From: Haliscomenobacteraceae bacterium
Lineage (GTDB): Bacteria; Bacteroidota; Bacteroidia; Chitinophagales; Saprospiraceae
Assembly (NCBI GenBank): GCA_947501115.1
Contig: CANMVX010000006.1
Coordinates: 61,587 to 125,586, forward strand
DNA: 64,000 nucleotides
Reading direction: 5' to 3'
A program made the translations under genes and the position numbers. A model generated the notes under the pieces. The model made no database searches, was not told the DNA's origin, and saw only the letters and a program-made list of their open reading frames with translations. Below are positions 7,977-64,000 of this stretch, in pieces (position 1 is the stretch's first letter; the number at the start of each line of letters is the position of its first letter).

Positions 7977-10568
7977 ATGAAGCAACTATTTATCTCATTT
8001 CTATTGTCTCTTACTTTTTTAGGTGGGTTAGCAGGACAAAAAGTACCTTTATCGTATTATTTGCCTGAAATAGAATACCAAGCAAATATTCCTACTCCTG
8101 AAGCATTTTTTGGGTTTCAGGTGGGTGACTGGCATCTTTCACATGACCAGCTTTTGTCCTACCTCAAACACATTTCTTCGCTTTCTTCTAAAGCGAAATG
8201 GGTTGAACATGGCAGAACGTACGAGGGAAGACCTTTGATTCATTTGGTTATTACCTCGGAGGAGAATCACAAAAATCTGGAAGCTCTTCGTTTAAAACAC
8301 GTGGCTAATACGAATCCGGAGCAATCTGCAAAGTTGAATCTTGAGGAGGTACCGCTCGTTTTTTATCTGGGAAATGCCATCCATGGTAATGAAGCCAGTG
8401 GATTTAATGCCGGACCTTTGGTAGCCTATTATATGTTGGCTGGCAAAAGTCAGTCTATTGATAAATTCCTCGAAAAATGTATTCTCATTTTTGACCCTAG
8501 TTTAAATCCAGATGGTGCTCAACGCTTTTCTACCTGGGCAAATATGCATAAAAATGAAAATTTAACGGGCGATAATCAAGACAGGGAATATAATGAAACC
8601 TGGCCTGGTGGTCGTTCTAACCATTATTGGTTCGACTTGAATAGAGATTGGTTGTCCATGGCTCACCCGGAAAGCAGAGGTAGAATTTCCATTTTTCATC
8701 ACTGGAAACCTAATGTCTTAACAGATCATCATGAAATGGGTACCAATGCGACTTTTTTCTTTATGCCCGGTGTACCAAGTAGAGTAAATCCGAATACGCC
8801 AAAGAAAAACCAACAACTTACCGCTAAAATTGGTCAGTACCACGTTAAGGCTTTAGATAAAATTGGTTCTCTGTATTATTCCGAGGAAGGGTATGACGAT
8901 TTTTACTACGGTAAAGGTTCTACCTTTCCAGATGCTAACGGATGTATCGGTATTCTTTTTGAACAGGCCAGCTCGAGAGGGCATTTGCAACAATCGGAAA
9001 ATGGACCTCTTGCTTTTCCATTTACTATCAGAAATCAGGTTGTAACTGCGCTTTCTTCCCTGGAAGCTGCATCTGCCTTGCGTGTTGAGTTGTTAGAGCA
9101 TCAAAGAGAATTTTTCCAAAATGCAAAGAAGGAGGCCGCAGCAGATACGAGAAAGGCTATTGTTTTTGGTGATAAATTTGATCCGGCCAGAGTAAATCAT
9201 TTCATCGAAATATTGAGAAGACAGCAAATTAAAGTTCATCATTTGGCTAAACCAGTGGCGGTTGAAGGTAAATCGTTCGAGCCTTCTTCCTCTTTCATTA
9301 TTCCAATGGAACAGGATCAATATAAGCTGATATTAGGTGCTTTTCAGGTGTTAAACCAATTTGAGGATAGTATTTTTTACGATATCTCTACCTGGACTTT
9401 GCCTCATGCATTTAATCTTGCTTACCAGTATTTGCCGAAAGCTGGATTTGATAACGCCTTATTCGGTAAAGAAATCGTCGGTTTAACTCCAGATATGAAT
9501 CCTCTGCCAGCTGTATCATTGTCTCAGTATGCCTATTTAATGGAATGGGATAATTATTATGCGCCTAAAGCTTTGTATCATATTCAGAAGGCGGGAATCA
9601 GAACAAAAGTATTTAGAGAAGGAATGACGCTGGGAGATAAAAAATATCAACCGGGAACGATTATGATTCCTGTTCAAAACCAGGTATTATCGCCGGAAAA
9701 AATACATGCAGTCATTGCTGAAGCATCAAATAAAAGTAAGGTGGTTATTGAAGCTGTAAGTACGGGTTTTACCGTTAAGGGAAATGATTTGGGGAGTAAT
9801 GGTTTGACAACCCTGGAAATACCAAAGGTAGCTATTATCATTGGGGAGGGAACTACCTCTTCTACCGTTGGTGAGGTTTGGCATCTTCTTGACCAAAGAT
9901 ATGGCATGGTGGTCAATAAATTAGAGGTTAACAGGCTTTCAAGATCTGATTTGTCCAGGTATAATGTCATTGTATTAGGTGGTGGTTCTTACCAGGCGCT
10001 GGGTGCGGCTGGTGCAGCACAAATAAAGGAATTTGTCCAAGGTGGGGGTACCGTAGTAGGTATCCAAAACGCTATTAACTGGTTGAAAAGCCAAAATTTA
10101 GTATCTGTTACTTACCGCGAAGTTCCCGACGGAGAAAAAAAGCGCAGACCTTATGGCGCTATGACAGACGATTTGTTTTCCCTAGAAATTCCAGGTACTA
10201 TTTTTGAAGCCGATTTAGATATTTCTCATCCTCTTGGATTTGGCTACAGACAAGGTAAAATACCCGTTTTCAGAGATGGTGATTTATTACTTGAGCCTTC
10301 AAAAAACCTCTATGCAACCCCATTGGTTTACACACAAAATCCATTGTTAAGTGGCTATTTACCAAGAAAATATAATGGTAAAATGGGAGGTACAGCAGGA
10401 ATTATTGTAGGAAGTGTAGGTACTGGAAAAATAATTATGATGGCTGATAATCCTAATTTCAGAGAACATTGGTTTGGTACAAATAAGTTATTCGCCAACG
10501 CCATTTTCTTCCCTAAAGCTATAAGTAGCATGGGAACAGAATCGGCTCCCCGAACAGGAAACGAATAA
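7977..10568 (+). CDS. secreted M14-family zinc carboxypeptidase
   Basis: 863 residues starting with a signal peptide (MKQLFISFLLSLTFLGGLAG). The zinc ligands lie in HGNEASG (near residue 135, the HxxE motif) and in the later DHHEMGTN region. The substrate-binding stretch NPDGAQR and the catalytic Glu (GILFEQASSRG) are present. After the roughly 370-residue peptidase domain comes a long C-terminal half with a glutamine-amidotransferase-like segment (about 640-720). This long form is common in Bacteroidota. It probably trims peptides in the periplasm or outside the cell. It is transcribed divergently from the monooxygenase operon; a small hairpin follows at 10584. Confidence 0.88.
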   Translation: MKQLFISFLLSLTFLGGLAGQKVPLSYYLPEIEYQANIPTPEAFFGFQVGDWHLSHDQLLSYLKHISSLSSKAKWVEHGRTYEGRPLIHLVITSEENHKNLEALRLKHVANTNPEQSAKLNLEEVPLVFYLGNAIHGNEASGFNAGPLVAYYMLAGKSQSIDKFLEKCILIFDPSLNPDGAQRFSTWANMHKNENLTGDNQDREYNETWPGGRSNHYWFDLNRDWLSMAHPESRGRISIFHHWKPNVLTDHHEMGTNATFFFMPGVPSRVNPNTPKKNQQLTAKIGQYHVKALDKIGSLYYSEEGYDDFYYGKGSTFPDANGCIGILFEQASSRGHLQQSENGPLAFPFTIRNQVVTALSSLEAASALRVELLEHQREFFQNAKKEAAADTRKAIVFGDKFDPARVNHFIEILRRQQIKVHHLAKPVAVEGKSFEPSSSFIIPMEQDQYKLILGAFQVLNQFEDSIFYDISTWTLPHAFNLAYQYLPKAGFDNALFGKEIVGLTPDMNPLPAVSLSQYAYLMEWDNYYAPKALYHIQKAGIRTKVFREGMTLGDKKYQPGTIMIPVQNQVLSPEKIHAVIAEASNKSKVVIEAVSTGFTVKGNDLGSNGLTTLEIPKVAIIIGEGTTSSTVGEVWHLLDQRYGMVVNKLEVNRLSRSDLSRYNVIVLGGGSYQALGAAGAAQIKEFVQGGGTVVGIQNAINWLKSQNLVSVTYREVPDGEKKRRPYGAMTDDLFSLEIPGTIFEADLDISHPLGFGYRQGKIPVFRDGDLLLEPSKNLYATPLVYTQNPLLSGYLPRKYNGKMGGTAGIIVGSVGTGKIIMMADNPNFREHWFGTNKLFANAIFFPKAISSMGTESAPRTGNE

Positions 10569-10583
10569 TATACAATAGACATG

Positions 10584-10600
10584 TGACCCCTTCGGGGTCA
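10584..10600. terminator. short GC-rich hairpin after the M14 peptidase
   Basis: TGACCCC, loop TTC, GGGGTCA: a perfect 7-bp stem 16 bases after the stop codon. It has no run of T on the 3' side, so it may be an RNA-stabilising hairpin rather than a full intrinsic terminator. Confidence 0.4.
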
Positions 10601-10756
10601 GGACACTATTTAAAATTAATCTTTCGAATCAAACCAACGACGTTATAGTTAATCCTAGAAATCCTGAAAATCCTGATTCAAACAATTGGCTGCTGCGCGC
10701 ATAATTTCCAACGGAGAATAGGGTGCTTTGGAATAATATGTCCTGAAAATAATTTT

Positions 10757-10968
10757 GAATCAGGATTTACAGGATTTCCAGGATTACAGAGGACGTCTTC
10801 GTTTTTAAAGTAATGGTTATTCGTAGAGGATTACTTTATTTCCTTCTTTTCGCCGATGCGTAACGCATCGGCTAGGGGCTTTGAAATGAAAGCACCGTTT
10901 AATAATAAACCTCCCACCCAAACCAACGACGTTATGGTTAATCCTGGAAATCCTGAAAATCCTGATTC
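10757..10968. repeat. 212-bp foldback element, copy A1
   Basis: The left arm begins GAATCAGGATTTACAGGATT. The right arm ends with the inverted version, ...CCTGAAAATCCTGATTC. The arms are about 30 bp and are themselves built from roughly 9-base steps of AATCCTGNA. In the middle is a 9-bp-stem palindrome, GCCGATGCG / CGCATCGGC (10852-10872). No transposase is present. Confidence 0.8.
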
Positions 10969-11052
10969 AAACCAATGGCAGCTGCGCGTATAATTTCCAT
11001 CGAAGATTGGTTAGTTGCTTGCTTTTGTGGAATGTTTCCTGTAAATAATTTT

Positions 11053-11264
11053 GAATCAGGATTTACAGGATTTCCAGGATTACAGAGGACGTCTTCGTTT
11101 TTAAAGTAATGGTTATTCGTAGAGGATTACTTTATTTCCTTCTTTTCGCCGCTGCGTTACGCAGCGGCTAGGGGCTTTGAAATGAAAGCACCGTTTAATA
11201 ATAATCTTCCGAATCAAACCAACGATGTTATGGTTAATCCTCGAAATCCTAAAAATCCTGATTC
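11053..11264. repeat. 212-bp foldback element, copy A2
   Basis: Same length and layout as copy A1: left arm at 11053, right arm ending at 11264, central palindrome at 11148-11168. The palindrome reads GCCGCTGCG / CGCAGCGGC, so the A:T pair of copy A1 has become C:G on both sides, a compensatory change. Confidence 0.8.
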
Positions 11265-11337
11265 AAACAACTGGCTGCTGTGCGCATAATTTCCACCCAA
11301 GAATGAGAGCTTAGTATTTTATTTCTCCTATAATCGA

Positions 11338-11401: not shown

Positions 11402-11995
11402 TTATAGCTTATATGCTGCCGCGTATCTTGCAATGTATTTCCCCAAAATATCAAATTCAAGATTTACGGGATCGCCTTCTTTTAGCATATTAAAACTCGT
11501 GTTTTCATAAGTGTAGGGAATGATGGCTACTTGAAAAGTAGATGAAGTAGGATTTATAACCGTTAAACTTACCCCGTTGATGCAAACAGACCCTTTATCA
11601 ACCAATAAATGTTTGTTCTCCTCGGGAAAATTGAAAGTGAAAATCCAGGAACCATCTTTATCTAATACACTTTTTACCACGCCCACGGTATCTACGTGAC
11701 CTTGGACCAAATGTCCGTCAAAGCGAGATAAACCAGACATGGCTCTTTCCAAATTGATAGATTCACCTATTTTCAAAGCACCCAAATTGCTTCTTAACAA
11801 GGTTTCGTCAATAGCAGTAACATGGTGTTTACCATTTTCTACAGCAGTAACGGTAAGGCAAACGCCATTGTGGGCAAGACTTTGATCTACTTTTAATTCA
11901 TTGGATATAGCAGAGGAAATGGTAAACTCTTTATTAGAGCCGTTCAGCCTGATTTCCTCCACTATGCCCATGGTTTCTATAATACCTGTAAACAT
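11402..11995 (-). CDS. ribE: riboflavin synthase, alpha subunit
   Basis: 197 residues with the diagnostic N-terminus MFTGIIE and two lumazine-binding barrels in tandem. Each carries its substrate loop (VCLTVT in the first, GVSLTVIN in the second). The enzyme dismutates two molecules of 6,7-dimethyl-8-ribityllumazine to riboflavin, and usually acts as a trimer in the cytosol. The length is normal. The gene sits 8 bases after the large type IX secreted protein gene and is probably co-transcribed with it, an unusual pairing of a vitamin gene with a surface protein. Confidence 0.95.
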   Translation of the reverse strand: MFTGIIETMGIVEEIRLNGSNKEFTISSAISNELKVDQSLAHNGVCLTVTAVENGKHHVTAIDETLLRSNLGALKIGESINLERAMSGLSRFDGHLVQGHVDTVGVVKSVLDKDGSWIFTFNFPEENKHLLVDKGSVCINGVSLTVINPTSSTFQVAIIPYTYENTSFNMLKEGDPVNLEFDILGKYIARYAAAYKL

Positions 11996-36075: not shown

Positions 36076-36481
36076 GGGGGACGTTCTGGTATCGACAGGA
36101 TGGTGAACTTGTAAGTAAGCATGTCGAAACTTGATGGTTAGTTCCGTTATCAAATGGCCATCGAAAAACAACCGGCGAAAATAACTACGCCTTGGCTGCC
36201 TAATTTTAGAAATTAGTAAGCCTTTACACGAAACGCCTGCTATTTTCAGCTCAGCTGAGATAGCCTGCACGCCGCCTGAGAGAGCCTGCGTCTAGTGTAT
36301 CATCCAAAAAATCGGGCTGGTTTTTCTTTGTGGCTCATAAAGAAAAATAAGATTCAGAGCTGGGTCAGAAAATGTGTCTTTTGTTGTACCTACCTTCTGA
36401 TTGAGATCAAAAACGACAAATAAACATGTAGAAAGCTTACGGGTGCTGTTTTGGACGCGAGTTCGACTCTCGCCGTCTCCA
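36076..36481 (+). ncRNA. ssrA: transfer-messenger RNA (tmRNA)
   Basis: The 5' end GGGGGACGTTCTGG and the 3' end GAGTTCGACTCTCGCCGTCTCCA form the tRNA-Ala-like part: GGGGGAC pairs with GTCTCC, and the T-arm GAGTTCGACTC is clear. The CCA end is not encoded. The resume codon GGC is at 36174 and the tag reads GENNYALAA before a TAA at 36201-36203, the known Bacteroidota tag. tmRNA rescues ribosomes stalled on broken mRNAs and marks the protein for proteolysis. No smpB is in this window. Confidence 0.96.
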
Positions 36482-36895
36482 CAAAGAGTCCTTTATGACT
36501 CACTCGGATGTCTCTTATTAGGGGTCATTCATTCGCACACGAAGCGACTCCAAGATGTTGCTGGCAGGAATCAAACTTCCGTCAGAACTGCATCTAAGGG
36601 TCGCTTCGCTGGTTTTATAACCTACCGATTTATATAATCTATAATGAAAATGGTGTGGATAAAGTTCCATTTAAAATGGTTAGTTTTTTTTATCCTTTAC
36701 AACTTTACCCTTCCAAACAACCTCATTTAATCCATCTCCAGGCCGAATCTCATGACAAATGGGAATTTACAATCAGATATGAGGTCTTGTATGTCATTGC
36801 TACCTTTTGTGATAAAGGCAATTTCAGATATAGTCAAAACCTTTTAATCCTAAGGAATCTCTCCTGCCTCTTTCTATTTATATCCCTAGCTATGA
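36482..36895. other. 414-base gap after ssrA, no gene seen
   Basis: It holds a weak hairpin (GAGTC / GACTC, 36486-36501) just after the tmRNA and a long imperfect hairpin at 36540-36608 (own entry). Reading frames here (for example 36655-36915) have no start context, domain or clear composition of a gene, so I do not call them. Confidence 0.5.
36540..36608 (+). other. 69-base long imperfect hairpin downstream of tmRNA
   Basis: CGAAGCGAC at the start pairs with GTCGCTTCG at the end. Inside, GATG pairs with CATC, CTG with CAG and GGAA with TTCC, around the loop TCAAAC. Small internal loops separate the four stems, so the segment folds as one rod. It may be a structured RNA, the end of the ssrA transcript, or a remnant of an inserted element. 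Confidence 0.55.
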
Positions 36896-56104: not shown

Positions 56105-56221
56105 TGTAATGAAATTTAAGATGACACAATGAGCTCCCGGATAATACAACAAATGAAATATACCTCCCTTCAGAGGTAAACAACACTAGCAGCCTTTCTC
56201 CCGAAAGCTTGAACGCTTTTT

Positions 56222-56402
56222 CAAAAGGCAGGTCTTCTGGCTCATTTTAAAATAGACACCTTCCCATTTGAAAAACAGTGGTGTATCGTCTATTTCTTAT
56301 ATACTTGTTACAGCATATCAAAATTTACAGCTACGGGGATAGCTCCTGATTTGAACAGGATTCCCTTTTAATTCCGCTTGAACGGAAACCAATTGAGCCG
56401 CA
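56222..56402 (-). ncRNA. cobalamin riboswitch
   Basis: On the minus strand the B12 box AGCCAGAAGACCTGCC (56242-56227) is preceded by GGGAAGG and CCACTG, and further upstream by GAGCTATCCCCGTAGCTGTAA and AGGGAATC, all hallmarks of the class I cobalamin aptamer. It lies about 120 bases before the btuB start. High cobalamin should shut off the receptor. Confidence 0.94.
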
Positions 56403-56646
56403 AATCTATTTTTATTTTATGTCAATTTGGTTTTTTTTGAATGGAAAAATATTTAATTATTTAGGGTAATTTTCAAACCTTGATTTTTAAGATTGTCAGG
56501 GTAAAACATTATTTTTTTAGTTTAAACTGTGTAATTATATGGTAAACATACAATATATGAATCTATCGGGTTCAGACACCGAAGCAAAATGACCTGTTTT
56601 AGCTTGTATTGCACAAAAAAAAGTAGGGGGAAACAGATAAGATGGC
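56392..56646 (+). repeat. degenerate duplicate of the katG promoter region and 5' codons
   Basis: This stretch aligns with 59137-59372: both begin ATTGA(G/A)CCGCAAAT and share TTTTTAAGATTGT and TTAAACT, then an ATG and about 37 codons. The first copy has an insertion of about 40 bases. The true katG lies 2.7 kb downstream, with the second propeller-toroid gene in between. Confidence 0.8.
56539..56646 (+). pseudogene. decayed katG 5' fragment
   Basis: From the ATG at 56539 the codons read MVNIQYMNLSGSDTEAK, stop, PVLACIAQKKV, against [29 protein letters not shown] in intact katG. Codon 18 is TGC in katG and TGA here; a second stop appears at codon 34. The match keeps the same numbering through codon 28 and fades after codon 36. 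It cannot make a catalase. Confidence 0.8.
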
Positions 56647-59213: not shown

Positions 59214-61490
<2,277 letters not shown>

Positions 61491-61515
61491 TCAAATAAGT
61501 TATATTTTGTTAAAG

Positions 61516-61547
61516 GAGGCTGTCTAAAAAGGTAGCCTCTTTTTTTT
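61516..61547 (+). terminator. intrinsic terminator after katG
   Basis: GAGGCT (61516-61521) and AGCCTC (61534-61539) form the stem, followed by eight T. The sequence GAGGCTGTCTAAA is shared with the terminator at 50608, 11 kb away. Confidence 0.85.
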
Positions 61548-61768
61548 GGTTTTATAGGTAAAATTTACCCTACCACCTGGTTTTGAATCACGGATTTTAA
61601 GGATTATGGGATTTCACGGATTATATTATTCCATTATTGTAGGGGCGAATAGCATTCGTTTTCTCATGATCCAGGTGTATTTCCCTATTGTCGAAACAAT
61701 AGAACCCCACCATCAGGTCATCCATCCCATTAGGTTTCAATATAAATTTACCCCTAACGCCTGGTTTT

Positions 61769-62001
61769 GAATCACGGATTTTAAGGATTACTGGATTTCA
61801 CGGATGATAGGAGAGGACGTCTTCGTTTCTTGTATGATGTTTATTCGTAGAGTATTACTTTATACCCTTCTTTTCGCCGATGCGTAACGCATCGGCGAAA
61901 GGTTTGGAAATGAAAGTACCATTTAATAACAACCTCCCCACTCAAACCGGGGACGTTATGGTTAAACAGTGAAATCCTGAAATCCCTTAAATCCGTGATT
62001 C
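61769..62001. repeat. foldback element, copy B1 (variant arms, 233 bp)
   Basis: The left arm is GAATCACGGATTTTAAGGAT, and the right arm is its inverted counterpart ending ...CCTTAAATCCGTGATTC. Both arms carry the CACGGATTTTAAGG variant rather than the CAGGATTTACAGG type. The central hairpin has GCCGATGCG / CGCATCGGC extended by TTTC / GAAA (61873-61900). Confidence 0.78.
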
Positions 62002-62086
62002 AAACAACTGGCTGCTGCGCACATAGTTTCCAACGAAGATTAGGAGTGTTGCTTGCTTTTGTGGAATGTTTCCAGTAACTAATTCT

Positions 62087-62297
62087 GAATCAGGATTTAC
62101 AAGATTTTCAGGATTACTGATGACGTCTTCGGTTTTAGCGCAATGGTTATTCGTAGAGTATTACTTTATACCCTTTTTTCGCCGATGCGTTACGCATCGG
62201 CGAAAGGCTTGGCAATGAAAGCACCATTTAATAACAACCTCTCCACTCAAACCGGAGACGTTATCATAAATCCTGAGAATCCTGTAAATCCTGATTC
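62087..62297. repeat. foldback element, copy B2 (211 bp)
   Basis: Left arm GAATCAGGATTTACAAGATT; right arm ending ...CCTGTAAATCCTGATTC. The length agrees with copies A1 and A2. The central hairpin (62178-62205) has the TTTC / GAAA extension of copy B1 but loop TTA in place of TAA. Confidence 0.8.
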
Positions 62298-62719
62298 AAA
62301 AACTAGTAGCTGCTGCGCGCATAATTTCCAACGAAGATTGAGGAGTTGCTTGCTTTTTTGGGATAGGATGTTCTGTAAATAATTTTTGAATCACGGATTT
62401 TAAGGATTTATAGGATTTCACGGATTATGGATAACCTCTTCGTTTTTAAGATAGGGGTAATTATGAATGGTTACTTTTTACACGCCTATTCACAGATGCA
62501 AAAAAGCATCAATTTTTTTTAGTGTTCACTTTAATAGCATATCTTATTAATCAAAAAAATCAAAAAAATCAAAGTTCAGACAGGATCTGCATATTCAAAT
62601 AAAGGTCAACATTTTCCCTTTCCATCCATTTGGGGGGCTATTTTGAACAAATTCCTTTAAATTCGTCGAATTTAAAGGGATTTGTGGGTCTGTTTTAATG
62701 CTGAAACTTTAAATCCAAA

Positions 62720-62727
62720 TAGTTTTG
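62720..62727 (+). promoter_or_regulatory. -7 box upstream of the right-edge surface protein
   Basis: TAGTTTTG fits TAnnTTTG and lies 17 bases before the ATG at 62745. No convincing -33 TTTG stands at the right spacing. Confidence 0.35.
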
Positions 62728-62744
62728 TAACACAAAGGAATTAG

Positions 62745-64000
62745 ATGGTTTTTAGTTATCTGCAATTTTTTAATATTACTTCCACAAATTCACCTTCATC
62801 AGACATACAATGGGTATGTTTGTTGACAGGTGATATATCCACCGGGTATTCCTTTGAATCATGGTCTGAATGGTCTTTTTCACTAAAAGAATATACTTCC
62901 TTTAAATATTGGATTATTTCAACAATAGGCTTACTATTATTCCTTTTGTGTGTAATGTCTCCGGCTTCTTTAATAGCCCAGGACACCACGATGGTGAGTG
63001 CTGTTTCTTCAGGAGGAAGTTTAGAGAACACTGGAAATGGATCGATTGAATTTTCCTTCGGACAACTGCTTTATGCCAATGAAATAGCGGGTTCTTATCA
63101 TGTAAATCAAGGTATCCAACAACCATCTATCTACGAACTGACTTCGTCTGTGTCCTCCCTCTCCTGCGATAATTATATGCTAGATAATACGGTGTTGTTA
63201 AAGGGGGAAATATATAATGGCGTAGTCATTTTACCTTATCTAGGTGGAAATGGCGCTAATTATCTGGGACTAAATATACCTTCTTCTTTGGTTAATGGTC
63301 TGACAATGACCTTGCCAACAGGTAAATTAGCGAAAGGCAATGGCTCCATTGAATTGGTGCTTAAAGGGGTGCCTGCCGACACGGGGATTGCCCTGTTTAA
63401 TCTGGTTTTTGGAACTAAATCCTGTCCCATTAGCCTTCGCGTATATAGTCCCCAACCTGAATTATCTGTTTTGCTTTGTGATAACTTTTCTTTGTTTCCC
63501 TCAGCAGTGGGGAAAAATTTGGATTATTCCGGAGAAGTGAGTATCACCTATTCAGGGGGAAATAACGTAAAAACAGCGCCTGTTTCGTTGTCTTCCCAAG
63601 GGGTTAACGGACTTGTTTTAAAAGCGGATTCCCTTTTGTTGAATCAGACGGGTGGCGTACTAAAATATACGCTGCTTGGAAAACCTGGCAGTGCAGGTAC
63701 CGCCCTTTTTTCACTTAAGATTGGCGGAAAAGCATGTGAGGTATCTGTGAAGGTGCTGGATAGCAAAATGATTAAAGTGAGTGATTATTTCTCTCCAAAT
63801 GGCGACGGCGTCAATGATTACTGGTCCATTCCGGAACTGGATCTGCTGCCCGATTCCAGGGTATTTATTTTTGACAGATTCGGTCGGGTGTTGGTGGAGT
63901 ATGCCGGAACTGCTTTCCGTTGGGATGGATTGATTAACAATATCCCCGCTCCGGTAGATTCCTACTGGTACCTCGTAAAATTAAATGACATCGAAACGTT
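62745..64000 (+). CDS. type IX-secreted protein with gliding-motility C-terminal domain, 3' end cut by the window
   Basis: An open frame from the ATG at 62745 to the right edge, 418 codons visible, without any stop. Residues 1-55 are a polar, aromatic leader (MVFSYLQFFNITSTN...). A good signal peptide follows at about 56-78 (WIISTIGLLLFLLCVMSPASLIAQ in outline), so the real start may be later, but no other ATG or GTG fits in frame. The body has Ser/Gly-rich beta segments. From about residue 343 the CHU_C domain appears: VSDYFSPNGDGVNDYW, FDRFGRVLVEY, DSYWYLVKL. It is probably a surface protein. Confidence 0.8.
   Translation, partial: MVFSYLQFFNITSTNSPSSDIQWVCLLTGDISTGYSFESWSEWSFSLKEYTSFKYWIISTIGLLLFLLCVMSPASLIAQDTTMVSAVSSGGSLENTGNGSIEFSFGQLLYANEIAGSYHVNQGIQQPSIYELTSSVSSLSCDNYMLDNTVLLKGEIYNGVVILPYLGGNGANYLGLNIPSSLVNGLTMTLPTGKLAKGNGSIELVLKGVPADTGIALFNLVFGTKSCPISLRVYSPQPELSVLLCDNFSLFPSAVGKNLDYSGEVSITYSGGNNVKTAPVSLSSQGVNGLVLKADSLLLNQTGGVLKYTLLGKPGSAGTALFSLKIGGKACEVSVKVLDSKMIKVSDYFSPNGDGVNDYWSIPELDLLPDSRVFIFDRFGRVLVEYAGTAFRWDGLINNIPAPVDSYWYLVKLNDIET

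Follow-up and report, generated by a model that had tools for sequence, protein, structure and literature searches.

In a 64,000-nucleotide stretch of contig CANMVX010000006.1 from a Haliscomenobacteraceae bacterium (the window, meaning here this stretch at its full length), two clusters of short foldback elements, arrays A and B, raise the question of what such elements are, how they came to stand in tandem, and which enzyme may have multiplied them. Both arrays are members of a dispersed family of hairpin-forming repeats that occupies dozens of sites in the source genome (a 4.70-Mb draft labeled G000, with C-numbers for its contigs or sites). As detailed below, the arms of these elements also bound a gene of the GxxExxY family, step repeats surround many GxxExxY genes in several phyla, and the elements turn over in place among congeneric species. 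We propose, while granting the proposal slightly less than an even chance, that arrays A and B are clusters of non-autonomous foldback elements, in which the predicted nuclease GxxExxY would cut the shared arms and template-switching repair would multiply the elements.

The original prediction described tandem foldback elements of 212 bp with inverted arms made of 9-base steps, and this anatomy was borne out. Tandem Repeats Finder reports 2.3 copies of a 296-base period at 10630-11302, direct repeats recur at 289- and 296-base spacing, and the inverted arms span 52 nt with 81% complementarity. The AATCCTGNA step, scanned as two steps with at most 2 mismatches, has 16 matches in the whole window, 10 of them inside array A, when 0.26 are expected and 0 of 100 shuffles reach 16. 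The array A elements measure 219 bases each, with spacers of 70 and 77 bases between them (Table 1), and the predicted length is close to the commonest core length, 204 bases, of the 53 distinct arm-bounded elements read among the loci fetched. An element begins with TTTTGAATCAGG and continues with a left arm of CAGGATTNN steps, a GACGTC block and a palindrome (GCCGATGCGTNACGCATCGGC or a variant), followed by a GACGTTAT block, a right arm of AATCCTGNA steps, and an end that is CCTGATTCAAAA or nearly identical to it. Across 35 copies, the arms form 33 paired columns in which 92.2% of cells are paired. No open reading frame (ORF) of at least 100 amino acids overlaps array A, whose flanking genes form a convergent pair. 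Array B (61582-62502), some arms of which are of the GTGATTCAAA type, is flanked by a katG-like peroxidase gene and, on its other side, by a CHU_C (type IX secretion signal) gene.

When compared with the whole draft, the repeat unit gives 191 BLAST matches, a figure in which many places count on both strands, the element being near-palindromic, and a 25-base arm pattern allowing at most 3 mismatches gives 131 matches against 0 for a reversed-pattern control. Copies thus exist beyond arrays A and B, and the outcome that the original prediction had named against itself, a family limited to these two arrays, did not occur. In the window and the other scanned stretches of the source genome, 58 arm groups were found, all intergenic, and the placement at transcript 3' ends that had been suggested is real as far as location is concerned: with ORFs called mechanically, the sites fall into 24 between convergent, 25 between tandem, and 5 between divergent genes, with 4 unclassed (convergent versus divergent, two-sided binomial P = 0.0005). 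Beyond this genome, the full element was matched in 4 of 396 genomes of the order, all from genus g1 (two candidates scored per genome), and the terminal pattern was present in 7/7 genomes of the genus, the source genome included, and in 0/93 others; in its full form, the element seems restricted to the genus. Its ends together with the GACGTTAT block are also found in metagenome-assembled genomes (MAGs) named Saprospiraceae, and the arm step alone in at least 112 stretches of bacterial and archaeal genomes.

The same arms bound a gene. At G000:C45, a GxxExxY gene has four arms on its left at ~183-base spacing and four on its right at ~138-base spacing, the stretches between the right arms repeating the 3' end of the gene itself; the counterpart locus in the congener G048 has two left arms and one right arm, and arms of array B closely resemble those of this locus (Table 1). 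The element ends are shared with a GxxExxY gene, and no transposase was found between these arms among the subset of the source genome's genes that was checked. The C45 protein is a full member of the family TIGR04256/PF13366: it scores 128.5 bits against TIGR04256, when five other proteins score 126.8-148.1 and the family cut-off is 35, and in a Pfam scan it matched PF13366 only, at E 0.001, with no match to the Rpn family PF04754. We predict that GxxExxY is a PD-(D/E)XK nuclease, as the conserved D, the E-x-K, and the fold of this class are all present in the predicted protein. Its AlphaFold2 model is confident, and the closest structure is SSO0001, a Cas4 protein, followed at lower Z by restriction-enzyme, lambda-exonuclease-like, and Holliday-junction-resolvase chains; a sequence search of the PDB with the GxxExxY profile gave nothing significant. 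A four-helix-bundle IVP protein (PF05635) was also considered as a candidate and set aside, its one match in the genome falling below the family cut-off.

Step repeats likewise surround GxxExxY genes far outside this genus. Among the arm-step matches listed, four GxxExxY genes adjoin arms in four unrelated groups: two have inverted arms (L231 and L256), one is flanked on either side by direct arms, with an inverted arm further out (L259), and one has arms on one side (L277), the arm being read as the protein C-terminus in L259 and L231. We then compared flanks independently of their sequence at loci not chosen for arms, starting from 73 loci, of which 70 had a GxxExxY ORF and 67 long enough flanks, some of these 67 sharing one genome (30/33 loci in a first version of the test). 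Exact inverted flanks of at least 14 nt occur at 22/67 GxxExxY genes, as against 0.49% of mispaired controls (n = 2639) and 0/41 neighbors. By local alignment, with a threshold set at the control's 99th percentile, 33/67 have inverted flanks, 22 direct flanks, and 41 either, compared with 1 and 2 of 50 among neighboring genes (1/50 for inverted flanks). The median distance from arm to gene is 84 bases ahead of the start and 57 bases beyond the stop. The arms differ in sequence (CACGGAGTT, CACAGATTNG, CACTAAGGG, ACACATAGG, AGGATTNT), short steps being common to the clearest cases; at one lag, 9/22 arm pairs reach 14/18 matches versus 8/135 background windows, the measure showing no step in the other 13/22 pairs. 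Five of eight plasmid records (from Fusobacteriota, Gemmatimonadota, Bacteroidota, Pseudomonadota, and Spirochaetota) also pass the flank threshold; by eye, L499, L500, L501, L502, L504, and L505 have step repeats on both sides and L498 and L503 a single matching block, the ORF ends of L499 and L500 having been set by eye around a tblastn match. Viral contigs yielded one GxxExxY locus only, which is excluded from the counts. Apart from these flanks, two of the plasmid genes look as if they had been inserted into operons, one lying between fabD and fabG in a Sphingomonas parapaucimobilis plasmid (L502) and the other between radA and a FAD-dependent protein gene in a Bacteroides finegoldii plasmid (L505), each in the same direction as its neighbors.

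Among congeneric species, the elements change while their sites mostly persist. Six congeners yielded orthologous sites, most gene ends there being 85-99% identical, and an element or fragment is present in 60 of 90 congener sequences (23 sites), 22/23 sites being occupied in at least one congener; 3 of the 30 misses are short contig ends. At the site of array A, G048 lacks one unit of ~288 bases; at C4, all six aligned species retain the outer left arm and the interior varies; at C24b, 65 bases between two direct arms are present in G150 and G048 and absent in the source genome; and at C30, the interior of G048 and G150 is oriented opposite to that of G000 and G153. For this last site, a simple inversion in place was considered, and replacement is more likely because the G150 copy is closest to a copy from another site (0.927, C24a of G048). 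Mean identity is 85.7% for the same site across species (65 pairs), 89.1% within the same array (13), and 78.5% for all others (1353), and of 54 full copies, 24 are closest to a copy at the same site in another species, 10 to one in the same array, and 20 to one elsewhere. These averages and counts show that many sites are inherited and that exchange, duplication, and loss at the arms continue there. That congeners mostly share sites and yet differ in copy number, content, and once in orientation (drafts break at these repeats, and some of the differences may be assembly faults) argues that the arrays evolve in place by arm exchange, and the best reading of their origin is an old insertion followed by unequal exchange and gene conversion between arms. 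The tandem arrangement, which the original prediction had called unusual for MITEs (miniature inverted-repeat transposable elements), is explained by local duplication, because identity is higher within arrays than among other sites and the number of units at one site varies between species.

Are these elements, then, MITEs, which they had been said to resemble? The likeness holds for their size within 50-1000 bp, the lack of a transposase gene or any long ORF, the terminal inverted repeats, the many dispersed copies, and presence or absence between species; no target-site duplication was seen, and no transposase sharing their ends was found among the genes checked. Empty sites in relatives, which the original prediction had proposed to look for, are represented by one clear filled/empty pair at C25a, where a 374-base segment running from one arm end to the other is present in G148 and absent in G150, with no clear target-site duplication; the other empty sites are not clean. 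The elements would best fit non-autonomous, MITE-like derivatives of GxxExxY cassettes. In the mechanism that we favor, the GxxExxY nuclease would cut at the folded arms, and template-switching repair after cutting would copy, exchange, and tandemly duplicate elements; on this view, GxxExxY protein would be produced, would bind or cut the arms, and would have driven the dispersal. A broader formulation, which we hold more tentatively still, is that GxxExxY genes constitute an unrecognized class of nuclease-driven mobile cassette across many bacterial phyla, with a Cas4-like PD-(D/E)XK nuclease set in foldback arms of 8-11-nt steps, of which the tandem arrays in the window would be the arm-only, non-autonomous offspring through nuclease-triggered template switching at folded arms.

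Several observations weigh against the involvement of GxxExxY. Only C45 is closely bounded by arms among the four GxxExxY genes of the source genome, two of the others (C7 and C11) having no such arms and the last (C88) having whole elements nearby and no matching arms within 250 bases. Elsewhere, the arms of L277 are one-sided and those next to the L259 gene are direct, 26/67 family loci have no significant flank match in either orientation, and at 29 loci of other genomes, where the arms use other steps, scanning for the AATCC step revealed a single arm cluster. No recent insertion of an element was observed. Elements also accompany a gene for a 520-aa AAA_35-type ATPase, and they may simply flank genes by hitch-hiking. 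On this last point, the GxxExxY and ATPase genes could be mere cargo, with host recombination and replication slippage between repeats duplicating and moving the DNA between arms without any dedicated enzyme, an explanation that we consider rather unlikely. Fixed-site turnover, unit deletion, and gene-conversion-like replacement indeed require homology only, the ATPase copies are flanked too, and many ordinary genes adjoin elements; however, step arms of differing sequence flank GxxExxY genes in many genera and phyla, when a single host repeat family predicts otherwise. Moreover, among the gene families with at least four members in the at least 112 arm loci listed (small ORFs inside elements excluded), only GxxExxY and the ATPase are arm-adjacent in all members, and only GxxExxY is so across phyla.

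A transposase would offer another route. An ordinary MITE derived from a DDE insertion sequence since lost from the genus would account for the size, inverted ends, copy number, intergenic sites, and presence or absence between species, yet we regard it as improbable given the missing target-site duplication at C25a and the fact that these ends bound a nuclease gene instead; to our knowledge, insertion sequences also have fixed ends, unlike arms of 9-base steps in variable number. Quite improbable, in our view, is that the elements are repeats of the repetitive extragenic palindrome (REP) type, such as REPINs or bacterial interspersed mosaic elements (BIMEs), spread by a REP-associated Y1 tyrosine transposase (RAYT or TIRYT). 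The source genome does have three Y1_Tnp genes, the elements have a central palindrome, their placement after genes is that of GTAG and CGTC repeats, and RAYT-like genes with long terminal inverted repeats (TIRtrons) appear in the available account of these systems (PMC3733652), but the arm step and palindrome are absent within flanks of up to 1.5 kb at 3/3 Y1_Tnp loci, for which reason a RAYT was rejected as the mobilizer, and one of these loci, L087, is flanked on each side by another repeat. Finally, the idea that the elements are maintained for a structural or RNA role at transcript ends would agree with the excess of convergent sites and with strong folding (single-strand z-scores of -8.1 and -8.2 on the two strands). 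The RNA idea of the original prediction draws weak support: two central hairpin pairs carry compensating changes, and cells with such changes (24 versus 16.3) as well as the covariation score exceed shuffles, whereas compensating pairs do not (5 versus 5.6), and over array A Rfam gave no family at gathering score, four miRNA-family matches all falling below it. Since interiors are also replaced or lost between species and a terminator scan listed none inside array A elements, we deem this explanation very improbable.

Known systems offer partial parallels to the nuclease-driven elements proposed here. The BrickBuilt MITE of Porphyromonas gingivalis, as summarized in its description (PMC4596501), is likewise a short intergenic element that combines inverted ends with tandem repeats and has numerous copies in the genome of a member of the Bacteroidota; it differs in having 23-nt tandem units inside and small inverted ends, when here the ends consist of 9-base steps, whole elements are in tandem, and the ends also bound a nuclease gene. 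The REP/BIME/REPIN, RAYT, and TIRtron elements, in the outline given in PMC3733652, share palindromes, mosaics, and placement after genes, and TIRtrons further share the idea of long inverted repeats around one gene family seeding arm-only dispersed copies, unlike which the gene between arms here is a predicted PD-(D/E)XK nuclease. The Rpn (YhgA-like, PF04754) proteins of Escherichia coli, PD-(D/E)XK nucleases widespread in bacteria, raise RecA-independent recombination, for which template switching was proposed according to their abstract (PMC5350276). They provide a precedent for such an enzyme in recombination, by analogy with which GxxExxY might act at arms; Rpn nevertheless belongs to another family than GxxExxY (PF13366), and its abstract does not mention flanking step arms. 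An exact-string and family-name search of open papers found no description of the function or flanking repeats of GxxExxY or of these arms. Short-step intergenic repeats occur in many environmental genomes, and no mobilizing enzyme for them was found in the literature searched. If the arms are indeed those of GxxExxY cassettes, a nuclease family of at least 7997 database clusters would gain a likely role, orphan short-step repeats a candidate enzyme, and a nuclease, not a transposase, would join the enzymes that seed MITE-like families.

Table 1. Arrays A and B and the genes flanking array A, in window coordinates.
Position	Strand	Feature
7977-10568	+	Peptidase_M14 gene, one flank of array A
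10595-11310	.	Array A as a whole: two full foldback elements, a partial one, and their spacers
10595-10682	+	Array A, 3' part of an element (model positions 132-219); AATCCTGNA arm, then TGATTCAAA at the end
10753-10971	+	Array A, full element 1: TTTTGAATCAGG arm, GACGTC, central palindrome, GACGTTAT, AATCCTGNA arm, TGATTCAAA
10852-10872	.	Central palindrome GCCGATGCGTAACGCATCGGC of element 1
10972-11048	+	Spacer separating the two full elements; ggcagctgcgcg-type module that recurs beside other copies
11049-11267	+	Array A, full element 2
11148-11168	.	Central palindrome GCCGCTGCGTTACGCAGCGGC of element 2; compensating change relative to element 1
11402-11995	-	Lum_binding (riboflavin-synthase-like) gene, other flank of array A
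61582-61621	+	Array B, lone arm of GTGATTCAAA type; 35/40 bases identical to an arm of the GxxExxY cassette at G000:C45
61765-62004	+	Array B, full element 1; left arm 36/40 identical to the arm of the GxxExxY cassette at G000:C45
62083-62300	+	Array B, full element 2
62385-62502	+	Array B, partial element (model positions 2-109)

The AAA_35-type ATPase gene is present in 10 copies in the source genome (C2:84302, C9:68007, C30:22405, C24:27065, C85:30, C24:1, C173:3, C40:1, C48:25576, and C34:30571), nine of them 87-95% identical to the C2 copy and 7 having an element ~100 bases upstream; the C40 copy is cut at its upstream side, those on C48 and C34 have no upstream element, and those on C30 and C85 have one internal stop each. 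At L087 (G000:C49), the repeat GGGGCCTAGCCCCGNCATCTTCGTAACC stands on both sides of the Y1 (RAYT) transposase gene, at 1377-1404 and 1967-1994, and may be this transposase's own REP; similar strings are found inside several arrays. Direct arrays in which an arm is joined to a module with a terminal hairpin (for example GAGAAGACGCGAAGCATCGCGTCTCTACG) also occur (G000:C30:15044-15380 and G000:C25:30756-31094), with a period of ~102-112 bases; the stretches read contain no central GCCG palindrome. In MAGs, related small open frames of 60-82 aa cross elements (L204, L218, L219, L223, L234, L282, L297, and L308), perhaps because a 9-base step keeps the frame open.

The katG end beside array B (locus at 61490-62745 of the window) and a GAF-domain gene (locus at G000:C52:3509-4119) lie on separate contigs with separate arrays in the source genome; because the two are found on one contig, within ~2.3 kb, in G148, G151, and G150, this suggests a rearrangement, or a misassembly, with breakpoints in the arrays. 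The window also contains a tmRNA gene (36077-36484, + strand) and a cobalamin riboswitch (56210-56408, - strand), both above the Rfam gathering score.
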